A stretch of DNA of 64,000 nt, from the NCBI RefSeq assembly GCF_003439925.1, contig NZ_QQRR01000001.1, positions 992,001 to 1,056,000 on the forward strand. The letters are read 5' to 3'. This DNA is from Haloprofundus halophilus. GTDB taxonomy: Archaea > Halobacteriota > Halobacteria > Halobacteriales > Haloferacaceae. The position numbers and the translations under genes were made by a program. Positions within the stretch are counted from its first letter, which is position 1. Each line of letters opens with the position of its first letter. Positions 8,287-12,506 of this stretch are shown here, in pieces. The notes under the pieces were generated by a model that was given only the letters and a program-made list of their open reading frames with translations, was not told the DNA's origin and made no database searches.

Positions 8287-8739
8287 TTACCCCTGTTCGA
8301 CCCGCCGCAACGCCGCCGCAACGCCCTCGGGCGTCGCCCCCTCTGCCTGAATCCGGTGGTCGGGAATCAAGAGCGGAACCGGATTCTCTCGAAGCGCCGT
8401 CTCGACCAGTCGAACGTCTTCCTCGTCGTCGGCGTCGAGTCCGGCCAACCGCGCCAGTCGTTCAACCGAAATCGTCTCGCCGTGGGGGACGTTTCGGGTC
8501 GCTTCCAACACGCTCCGCTGGTCGGTCGGTACGGTCAACGCGACGGGGGCGTCGTCGAAGTGGTCCTCCGCGCCGCCGAGGTAGTCGAAGATGCGGTCCA
8601 AGATGGGATGGTCGGGTTCGGCGTCGTCGGGGACCGAGTCGGGGAACGAGACGTTGATGACGCGACCGCCGACGACGCCGAGTTGGACGACGGAGTCGAG
8701 CGTCGGCGACTCGCGCGCGTAGATTCCTGCGTCTTCCAT
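8287..8739 (-). CDS. Alkyltransferase-like (MGMT fold) protein with Asp in place of active-site Cys
   Basis: A 150-residue protein whose C-terminal half matches the DNA-binding domain of O6-alkylguanine-DNA alkyltransferases: V-P-H-G-E-T-I-S-V-E-R-L-A (94-106) and N-P-V-P-L-L-I-P-D-H-R-I (119-130). The canonical active site is P-C-H-R; here it is P-D-H-R with Asp at 127. The protein therefore cannot accept an alkyl group as MGMT does. It resembles the alkyltransferase-like (ATL) proteins, which bind alkylguanine and recruit nucleotide excision repair. The ATG at 8739 is used because the upstream in-frame start is TTG. It is convergent with the membrane-protein pair and divergent from trpC. 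Confidence 0.72.
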   Translation of the reverse strand: MEDAGIYARESPTLDSVVQLGVVGGRVINVSFPDSVPDDAEPDHPILDRIFDYLGGAEDHFDDAPVALTVPTDQRSVLEATRNVPHGETISVERLARLAGLDADDEEDVRLVETALRENPVPLLIPDHRIQAEGATPEGVAAALRRVEQG

Positions 8740-8799: not shown

Positions 8800-8826
8800 C
8801 TTATGAACAGATTAGTGCATTAGTGT
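8800..8826 (+). promoter_or_regulatory. trpCBA promoter with tandem ATTAGTG element
   Basis: A TATA-like cttatgaa (8800-8807) sits 26-33 nt upstream of the trpC ATG. Directly after it are two 8-nt copies, attagtgc (8811-8818) and attagtgt (8819-8826), ending in gtac. Their position between TATA and start is where a haloarchaeal repressor would act. The regulator is not known from this window. Confidence 0.45.
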
Positions 8827-8832
8827 ACATTG

Positions 8833-9597
8833 ATGAACGACACAGCGGACGTCGCCCCGGCGGTGCGCTCGATTCTCGCCGCCGCGCGCGACAGAGACGG
8901 CGGGAGCGAACGGCTCTCGGTCGACGCGCGGTCGTTGCCCCGCGCGTTCGCCGCCGCCGAGAGCGACGGACGAGTTCCCGTCATCGCCGAGGTGAAACCG
9001 ACGAGTCCGACCACCGAGGGGACGCGAGAGGACGACCCGGTCGAACTCGCCCAGCAGATGGTCGACGGCGGCGCGGCGGCGCTGTCGGTGCTCACCGAAC
9101 CCGAACATTTCGGCGGGTCGACCGAGAACCTCCGACGGATTCGTGAGGCCGTCGACGTGCCCGTCCTGCGCAAGGATTTCGTCGTCCGAGAGGACCAGTT
9201 GGACCTCGTCGAATCCGACGTGGTGCTTCTCATCGCGCGGTTCGTCGACGACCTCTCCGGACTCTTGGACGCGGCCGAAGCCCGCGACTTCCAGGCGCTC
9301 GTCGAAGTCCACGACGGCGACGAACTGAGCGAGGCCGTCGCGGCAGGTGCCTCGATAATCGGCGTCAACAACCGCGACCTGGCGAAGTTGGAGGTCGACC
9401 TCTCGACTTTCGAGTCCGTCGCGCCCGCGGTCCCCGAGGACGTGACCCTCGTCGCCGAGAGCGGCGTGACGACGCCCGAGGACGCCCGACGGATGCGCGA
9501 CGCGGGCGCGGACGGACTGCTCGTCGGGTCGGCCATCATGGCGGGCGACGTGCGAACGGAGACCGAGAAGTTCGTCAACGCGGAGGCCCACGAGTAA
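8833..9597 (+). CDS. trpC: Indole-3-glycerol phosphate synthase
   Basis: A 254-residue TIM-barrel enzyme that closes carboxyphenylamino-deoxyribulose phosphate to indole-3-glycerol phosphate. Family motifs are I-A-E-V-K-P-T-S-P (catalytic Lys at about 55), V-L-R-K-D-F-V and G-V-N-N-R-D-L. The C-terminal phosphate-binding strand is [10 protein letters not shown]. The ATG at 8833 is preferred to a TTG one codon earlier and lies at leaderless distance from the TATA box. It is the first gene of trpCBA; only 2 nt separate it from trpB. Confidence 0.96.
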
Positions 9598-10844: not shown

Positions 10845-11683
10845 GCCGCATCCCCGAGGCGTTCGCCGACGGACCCGCGTTCATCCCGTACCTCGCCGTC
10901 GGCGACCCCGACTACGAGTCGTCCATCGAGTACGTCGAGGCGCTCGAACGCGGCGGCGCGGACGTCGTCGAACTCGGCCTCCCCTTCTCGGAACCGGTCG
11001 CGGAGGGACCGACGATACAGAACGCGGTCGTCCGGGCGCTCGAGGGCGGCATGACGCCGACGCGGTTCTTCGAGTTCGTCGAGGAGCTTGACGTCGACGT
11101 GCCGCTGGTCTGCATGACCTACTACAACCTCATCTACCGCTACGGCGACGACGACGGGAACCGACCGCGCGCGTTCGTCGAGAAGGCCGCAGAAGTCGGA
11201 CTCGACGGCTTCGTCGTCCCGGACCTTCCCGCCGAGGAGGCCGGCCCGCTCCGCGAGGCGTGCGACGAGTTCGACCTCGACCTCGTGTTCATCGTCGCGC
11301 CGACGACGGAGGGCGAACGGCTGGAGCGAATCATGGAGCAGGTCTCTGGTTACGTCTACGTCCAGGCGCGCCTCGGCGTCACCGGGGCGCGCAGCGACGT
11401 ATCAACGCAGACCGACGAGAGTCTCGCGCGACTCGACGAGTGGGACGTGCCGAAGGCCGTCGGCTTCGGCATCAAGACCGGCGAACACGCCGAGCGCATC
11501 GTCGCCGGCGGCGCGGACGGCATCATCGTCGGCAGCGCGCTCGTCGATATCGTGGCTGAAGGCCACGAGAACGGCGACTCGGCCGAAACCGTCGCCAGCC
11601 GCCTCGAAACGAAGGCGCGCGAACTGAGCGAGGGTGCTTCTCGCGGGTTCGCGCAACGCCCACCGCATCCGGAACGCACATAA
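10841..11683 (+). CDS. trpA: Tryptophan synthase alpha chain
   Basis: A 280-residue TIM-barrel subunit that cleaves indole-3-glycerol phosphate to indole and passes it to TrpB. It has the family catalytic Glu in [10 protein letters not shown] and the F-V-V-P-D-L-P segment. The G-F-G-I-K-T phosphate loop region and G-S-A-L-V motif follow. The L-P-F-S-E-P motif carries Glu where many TrpA proteins have Asp. The C-terminal 20 residues are less conserved and partly basic. It overlaps trpB by 4 nt and is last in the operon. Confidence 0.96.
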
Positions 11684-11697
11684 CCGTACACTGGTAC
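11679..11697 (+). promoter_or_regulatory. Promoter of aroA' with GTAC-N4-GTAC element
   Basis: A TATA-like cataac (about 11679-11684) lies about 28-33 nt upstream of the ATG at 11712. Just after it is gtacactggtac (11686-11697). Its first 8 nt, gtacactg, are the reverse complement of the tagtgtac element before trpC, with one mismatch. This suggests a common regulator, but rests on a short match. Confidence 0.35.
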
Positions 11698-11711
11698 AGA
11701 TTCACATACTC

Positions 11712-12506
11712 ATGAACACAGGAGTCCACGCACGACTCGACCGCATCTCCACAGAGGGGCGATACCTCGTCGTCCCGATGGACCACGGAATCACACTCGG
11801 GGCCGTAAAAGGCCTCAAGAACATCGAATCGACCATCTCGGCGGTGACCCGCGGCGGGGCCGACGCCGTCCTCACCCAGAAGGGAATCGCCCCGCGCGTC
11901 CACCCGCACAAGAACGGCCGCGGCTACATTATCCACCTCAACGCCTCCACCGTCATCGGCCCCGACAGCAACGATAAGCGGATGACCGGCACCGTCGAGG
12001 AGGCGGTTCGCGCCGGCGCCGACGCCGTCTCGCTCCACCTCAACGTCGGCAGCAACTACGAACCCAAACAGCTGGAGGACCTCGCGCGCGTCACCGACGA
12101 CGCCGAACGCCTCGGAATTCCGGTGCTGGCGATGGCGTACGCCCGCGGCCCCGACATCGACGGCAGTAACCCGGAAGCGCTCGGCCACGCGGTCCGCCTC
12201 GCGGAGGAGGCGGGCGCGCACGTCGTCAAGACCGGCTACAGCGGTAACGCCGAGACGTTCGAGCACGTCGTCGAGTCGACGCGCCTGCCCGTCGTCATCG
12301 CCGGTGGAAGCCGAGGCACCGACCGGGAGACCGTCGAGATGGTCCGCGGCGCGATGGACGCGGGCGCGGCGGGCGTCTCGATGGGCCGCTCCATCTTCCA
12401 GCACGACGACCCCGAGGCCATCACGCGCGCCGTCTCCGCCGTCCTCCACGACGACCAGTCGGCCGAGGAGGCCATCGAACACGCCGGACTCGGCATCGAA
12501 GCCTGA
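11712..12506 (+). CDS. aroA': 2-amino-3,7-dideoxy-D-threo-hept-6-ulosonate synthase (class I aldolase family)
   Basis: A 264-residue protein of the archaeal class I aldolase (DeoC/FbaB) family. The archaeal shikimate route starts with this enzyme, which joins a 6-deoxy-5-ketofructose phosphate with aspartate semialdehyde. Visible features are the V-P-M-D-H-G-I N-terminal motif, the Schiff-base Lys in H-V-V-K-T-G-Y, and a C-terminal I-A-G-G-S-R-G phosphate site. Sequence alone does not fully separate this activity from fructose-bisphosphate aldolase. The location next to trpCBA and dehydroquinate synthase II supports the aromatic role. The ATG at 11712 begins right after its own promoter. Confidence 0.88.
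   Translation: MNTGVHARLDRISTEGRYLVVPMDHGITLGAVKGLKNIESTISAVTRGGADAVLTQKGIAPRVHPHKNGRGYIIHLNASTVIGPDSNDKRMTGTVEEAVRAGADAVSLHLNVGSNYEPKQLEDLARVTDDAERLGIPVLAMAYARGPDIDGSNPEALGHAVRLAEEAGAHVVKTGYSGNAETFEHVVESTRLPVVIAGGSRGTDRETVEMVRGAMDAGAAGVSMGRSIFQHDDPEAITRAVSAVLHDDQSAEEAIEHAGLGIEA

Follow-up and report, generated by a model that had tools for sequence, protein, structure and literature searches.

An alkyltransferase homologue near-universal in haloarchaea, with aspartate in place of the alkyl-accepting cysteine, as a candidate repurposed repair protein

The PDHR gene and its locus

The window, a stretch of 64,000 nucleotides from the genome of Haloprofundus halophilus that was analysed as a whole, carries on its minus strand a gene for a homologue of the O6-alkylguanine alkyltransferases (AGTs), which occupies positions 8287-8739 (ATG at 8739, stop codon included) and encodes 150 amino acids. 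The translated reading frame has IPDHRI where AGTs have IPCHRV: the alkyl-accepting cysteine, Cys145, is replaced by Asp127, whose codon GAC lies at 8359-8361 in plus-strand numbering (the gene itself being on the minus strand), and we call the product the PDHR protein. Its residues 74-142 match PF01035, the AGT DNA-binding domain (E 2.3e-11; 43.8 bits for a cut-off of 27), and its score against TIGR00589 of NCBIfam is 35.4 bits, under the cut-off of 46.4. In a sequence search of solved structures the protein matches human MGMT with an E of 3.5e-5, and the matches with E < 0.1 are all AGTs or, judging by their names, tag fusions of AGT. The corresponding protein of Haloprofundus marisrubri (L006) is 94% identical to that of the window. 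No published account of the PDHR protein was found among the matches listed in the openly licensed literature, supplements aside.

The divergent neighbour is trpC (indole-3-glycerol phosphate synthase; 8833-9597, plus strand; PF00218, E 1.4e-68), followed by trpB and trpA. Within the divergent intergenic region, a trpC promoter element at 8800-8829 on the plus strand combines the TATA-like CTTATG with phased GTAC-like half sites that continue to the start codon, and occurs a single time in the window genome when up to 3 mismatches are allowed. Similar GTAC-containing pairs are present at about 11680-11715, directly upstream of the next gene, which we take to be aromatic-pathway-like.

Distribution in the class and identity of residue 127

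Of the 391 genomes searched in the class, all but one (390) contain a relative at E <= 1e-5, and so do 86 of its 86 genera, the weakest best match having an E of 4.1e-17; the sole genome without one is an assembly that is 88% complete. The loci fetched, a subset of these 390 genomes, gave 142 aligned rows, partial or split matches (L015, L074, L075, L130, L164 and L165) and identical proteins having been left out beforehand. We divide these rows into 138 mainstream and 4 deep-branching ones, the latter being defined from the gene tree described below, with no species tree.

Among the 138 mainstream rows, residue 127 is Asp in 129, Thr in 4, Ser in 4 and Ala in 1; in the 4 deep-branching rows it is Cys twice and Ser twice. 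The same column holds Cys in all 20 outgroup AGT rows, which were hand-picked from a longer list, and in all 25 canonical haloarchaeal Ogt rows, which represent one taxonomic family (a further Ogt row, L260, has a misframed start and was left out of the column comparison). The Asp is encoded by GAC in 95 and by GAT in 34 of the 129 rows. The initial annotation, which had described an MGMT-fold protein with PDHR in place of PCHR, is thus borne out by the reading frame, by the PF01035 match and by the relatives in almost every genome of the class, and its replacement of Cys by Asp is near-fixed in haloarchaeal homologues. It had also proposed that Cys be looked for in close relatives, as a sign of a merely local mutation; Cys is present in 2 of the 142 rows, both of them from deep-branching genomes and neither from a close relative. 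Because relatives are so nearly universal and most mainstream rows share the Asp, a local mutation can be rejected, and a sequencing error is likewise ruled out by the shared Asp and its GAC or GAT codons. In two genomes (L130 and L164) the gene is read as two pieces, owing to a frameshift or an assembly error.

A second alkyltransferase homologue, of the Cys type, has a patchier distribution. All 60 genomes of the host family have a PF01035 match, and by hand count 30 of them have a second one; 6 of the 30 genomes without a second match are under 90% complete, and 10 of the 60 lie outside the 391-genome search, their single or weaker match being left out of the reading. Every one of the 26 Ogt rows read has PCHR. 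The window genome has one other AGT above the Pfam cut-off, and this is such a PCHR Ogt (L002, domain at C1:671274-671513).

Residues kept and lost around the former active site

In human AGT, according to an excerpt of PMC10779285, Asn137 forms the hinge and the His146/Glu172 pair activates the cysteine. With human numbering assigned by motif alignment, the counterparts in the PDHR protein are Asn119 (8383-8385), His128 (8356-8358) and Glu148 (8296-8298), all on the minus strand. These three are the only columns that are invariant across the 142 rows, and the nine mainstream rows with Thr, Ser or Ala at 127 retain all of them (9/9).

Other residues of the AGT active site have gone from the mainstream rows. 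The column of Tyr114 holds Tyr in 4/4 deep, 25/25 Ogt and 20/20 outgroup rows and in 0/138 mainstream rows, where Val prevails (105 rows, followed by Leu in 19, Thr in 5, Ile in 5, Ala in 2, Arg in 1 and Cys in 1; Val92 in the window protein). Lys165 has the same distribution, Lys being present in none of the 138 mainstream rows and in 4/4 deep, 25/25 Ogt and 20/20 outgroup rows, with Ala141 in the window protein. A G-[FY] loop no more than 25 residues past PxHR is found in 2/138 mainstream, 3/4 deep, 25/25 Ogt and 20/20 outgroup rows. Measured against the AGTs, the PDHR protein thus has the two-domain fold with its helix-turn-helix (HTH) and the Asn/His/Glu set, and lacks the Cys, the Tyr, the loop and Lys165.

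Fold, N-terminal domain and selection

An AlphaFold model built on the 142-row alignment has a mean pLDDT of 95.5, and its residues 3-150 can be aligned to complete AGTs, the best match being the OGT of M. tuberculosis (Z 17.4 over 136 residues), with a Z of 17.0 for the S. solfataricus OGT with DNA. Alkyltransferase-like proteins (ATLs) align with the C-terminal domain only (3gva with a Z of 8.9 over 73 residues; Atl1 over residues 69-150), and the next structure match outside AGTs and ATLs has a Z of 4.4, other folds being still possible. The model and column identity define an N-terminal AGT-type domain at residues 1-66 (8542-8739, minus strand), with a conserved G-I-Y-A-R at residues 5-9.

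The claim of the initial annotation that the DNA-binding half is conserved holds for that half, but the N-terminal domain is likewise conserved. Mean pairwise identity in the N- and C-terminal domains is 0.55 and 0.57 for the 138 mainstream rows, 0.43 and 0.72 for the canonical Ogt and 0.24 and 0.54 for the outgroup, the groups being unequal in sampling breadth and the N-domain figure for Ogt coming from 41 columns. The dN/dS ratio is 0.12-0.23 in 10 within-genus pairs of the PDHR gene and 0.14-0.25 in 6 Ogt pairs; purifying selection on the PDHR gene matches that on Ogt.

The helix-turn-helix and the DNA face

From the model and the alignment, the HTH covers residues 92-117 (8389-8466, minus strand; model helices at 92-98 and 106-117) and includes Val92 and Arg110. 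Its turn carries an acidic insertion, residues 101-107 (8419-8439, minus strand), recognised by alignment gaps: columns 101-107 are gapped in 25/25 canonical Ogt rows, and columns 101-105 in 20/20 outgroup rows. The initial annotation had asked for an HTH and an arginine finger in a structural model, and the former is present in the AlphaFold model; for the latter the answer is divided, as the window protein has Arg110 in the finger column, which corresponds to human R128, and Arg stands there in 27 of the 138 mainstream rows. Arg is found at 110 or, one helical turn on, at 113 in 128/138 of these rows, and could serve DNA contact from either place. The loss of the arginine finger itself tells little here, because the canonical haloarchaeal Ogt also lacks it (Val 18, Gln 6, Ile 1 and Arg 0 in the finger column, n=25). 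A Gly shared by 45/45 AGT rows has become Arg113 in 119/138 mainstream rows, with Glu113 in the window protein, and in the 138-row columns the recognition helix is variable apart from Asp108, Val112, Arg113, Ala115 and Leu116.

The HTH is also strongly acidic. The window protein has a net HTH charge per residue of -0.18, and the family mean is -0.162; the means for comparison are -0.044 for canonical Ogt, +0.126 for outgroup AGTs and -0.194 for the deep rows. The PDHR protein's HTH is more acidic than all 36 HTH segments (PF13412 and PF01022) scored in its own genome (mean -0.039, minimum -0.133), a comparison in which the AGT stretch has 33 residues, while the other HTHs are delimited by Pfam, belong to other folds and come from putative DNA binders, 25 of them from a first look in which 150 of 182 candidates were scored and 11 from a set with 12 overlapping rows removed. 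Values below this own-genome minimum occur in 96/138 mainstream, 0/25 Ogt and 3/4 deep rows. In molar salt, proteins may use acidic faces to bind DNA. Acidity alone is no proof of lost repair, because the deep rows, two of which have the Cys and all of which have the Tyr and the Lys, are already acidic; for the same reason, the change of HTH charge seems, from these alignments, to predate the loss of the Cys.

Origin of the gene and gene order

In a midpoint-rooted tree of 78 rows, which includes 46 of the 142 family rows and drew an uneven-composition warning for 11 rows, the 46 family rows lie on one side of a branch with 100/100 support. The 42 mainstream rows among them form one clade (100/98), and the 4 deep rows fall outside it, their mutual unity being unsure (89/53). 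Eight haloarchaeal Ogt rows group apart from these with 100/100 support; the other 4 of the 12 rows labelled 'ogt' (L214, L238, L239 and L249) are outgroup rows or copies thereof.

Gene order agrees with the tree. TBP is encoded immediately upstream on the same strand in 4/4 deep genomes, and 12 of the 20 outgroup AGT loci have TBP (9), NMNAT (6) or LonB (5) nearby; of the 163 distinct family genes, 73 have LonB within the fetched stretch, which is often short. Pfam confirmed each of these three names on a single example, though for NMNAT it went no further than cytidylyltransferase-like. In the deep genomes (L076/L133, L129, L131 and L132) the Cys or Ser form follows directly after the TBP gene, and in three of these genomes the two genes overlap by a few bases. 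As synteny and tree agree, the PDHR gene looks like the haloarchaeal orthologue of a vertically inherited archaeal AGT, and in the haloarchaeal line the DNA face looks to have been altered first, before the Cys, Tyr, Lys and loop were lost. A recent horizontal origin is disfavoured by the gene order and by the midpoint-rooted tree.

That trp genes adjoin the PDHR gene, as the initial annotation had noted, is common in the class and not universal. The gene is divergent from trpC within 400 bp in 107 of 163 distinct genes, with a median gap of 101 bp (this count is deduplicated; 122/163 loci includes repeats), in 16/163 trpC lies elsewhere in the fetched stretch, and in 40/163 none is shown. All 32 genomes searched among those without trpC in the fetched stretch do have trpC, some of them a few kilobases off. 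A loose pattern of the promoter element, composed after inspection of the aligned promoters, is present at 152/171 trpC loci (repeats included), and at 23/30 trpC loci from genomes without trpC beside the gene; by eye, the element is absent upstream of trpC in 4/4 deep genomes. The element is tied to the PDHR protein by position alone.

In two genera the gene has other neighbours. The PDHR-type gene lies directly downstream of mutL in 3/3 fetched genomes of genus g17 (L162, L273 and L274), and is divergent from mutS-mutL in 2/2 fetched genomes of genus g22 (L163 and L275), the MutS and MutL identities being confirmed by Pfam. The MutL proteins encoded at these two kinds of locus share about 41% identity, so that distinct operons and independent events may be involved. 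No shared theme was found among the neighbours of the other relocated copies.

Discussion

Since the Cys has mostly become Asp and the DNA-gripping parts are altered, the protein probably has another role. We see about an even chance that it is a disarmed, repurposed AGT that has been retained to bind non-covalently, with canonical lesion flipping probably absent. By sequence, the acceptor, the flipping Tyr, the loop and Lys165 have been lost and the HTH turn has gained its acidic insertion, while the Asn119/His128/Glu148 frame and the fold are kept under purifying selection; such a protein would not remove alkyl groups from O6-alkylguanine by suicide transfer, and would probably not flip lesions in the manner of an AGT or an ATL. 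It may instead bind a putative partner, either a protein or a small ligand, non-covalently, using the pocket that it has kept and its N-terminal domain, which has become strongly conserved. The initial annotation had offered two interpretations of its AGT fold, Cys-to-Asp replacement and trp neighbours, all three of which stand. One, an unusual ATL, does not agree with the presence of the N-terminal domain, the invariant Asn119 and the replacement of the Tyr by Val92, and on these three features membership of the ATLs is rejected; the absence of the Cys is shared with them. The other, repurposing of the protein for a putative new DNA or nucleotide ligand, fits better as regards the repurposing.

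A sensor that acts like an ATL while lying outside the definition of the ATLs, binding O6-alkylguanine or another lesion and passing it to UvrABC or to mismatch repair, is a tentative and rather unlikely alternative to the repurposed binder. It would continue a descent from DNA-repair AGTs, and a universal sensor would be useful where a second Cys-type AGT is missing, as in 30/60 genomes of the host family (with the 6 less complete assemblies among them). The Arg at 110 or 113 in most rows is also in its favour, as are a published study on uvrA, uvrB and uvrC in Halobacterium UV repair and the report of ATLs from archaea in an excerpt of PMC3950489. The mutS-mutL adjacency in genera g17 and g22 would fit a repair role as a weak lead, but it was found post hoc among many relocated copies, the others of which share no neighbour. 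The sensor is further opposed by the loss of the Tyr and the loop, by the Asp in the pocket, by the acidic HTH, and by the N-terminal domain and Asn hinge, both of which are missing in ATLs according to the excerpt of PMC10779285.

It is improbable that the protein is an AGT-derived HTH protein that regulates transcription of the divergent trpCBA operon, even though about two thirds of the distinct genes are divergent from trpC and the conserved promoter element occurs once in the window genome. The 4/4 deep genomes with the Cys or Ser form and the Tyr appear to lack the element, which would agree with regulation; however, this coincidence may come from a single branch, the synteny extends over a wider neighbourhood than the trpC pair, and the element persists at most trpC loci that are away from the PDHR gene. 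By the account of PMC10779285, AGTs place their HTH in the minor groove irrespective of sequence; the HTH of the PDHR protein is, moreover, very acidic, with a mostly variable recognition helix.

Still less probable, and in our judgement very doubtful, is an enzyme with turnover, in which Asp127 with His128 and Glu148 would accept the alkyl group in ester linkage, with hydrolysis to follow; the idea that its substrate would be a free alkylated purine, a nucleotide or another ligand instead of duplex DNA is given the same slight credence. The nucleophile of haloalkane dehalogenases is an Asp that works with a His and an acid, and the Asp of the mainstream rows does stand beside an invariant His and Glu. 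Yet the nine rows with Thr, Ser or Ala keep the Asn/His/Glu frame, which therefore does not need the Asp, and the PDHR protein has lost the Tyr, the loop and Lys165. A decaying relic, to which the lost acceptor and the gene in two pieces at L164 and L130 might point, is scarcely credible, being contradicted by near-universal conservation and by purifying selection in all 10 within-genus pairs.

If the PDHR gene is counted as an alkyltransferase, direct alkylation repair in the class would be overstated, because the acceptor has been lost and no second Cys-type AGT was found in half of the host-family genomes. Since Cys, Ser and Asp forms all exist in sequenced genomes, the change of role in a repair protein can be tested here, with Haloferax volcanii as a genetic model.

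Comparison with known systems

Alanine is among the residues usual at the Cys position of ATLs. Trp is usual there as well, as the initial annotation had it and as PMC10779285 states in its excerpted text. The ATLs (S. pombe Atl1 and E. coli ATL) resemble the PDHR protein in having no alkyl-accepting Cys and in their C-terminal AGT domain. According to the same excerpt of PMC10779285, ATLs have neither the N-terminal domain nor the Asn hinge, and retain the Tyr with the Arg finger; unlike them, the PDHR protein has the N-terminal domain and the hinge and is without the Tyr. The canonical haloarchaeal Ogt of the window genome belongs to the same superfamily; it keeps the PCHR, the Tyr and the loop, and falls in a separate clade of the tree. 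With archaeal and bacterial AGTs and OGTs the PDHR protein shares the two-domain fold, the Asn hinge, the His/Glu pair, the position of the HTH, ancestry and some of the gene order, whereas it differs from them in having Asp for Cys, Val for Tyr and an acidic insertion in the HTH turn, and in lacking the G-G-[YF] loop and Lys165.
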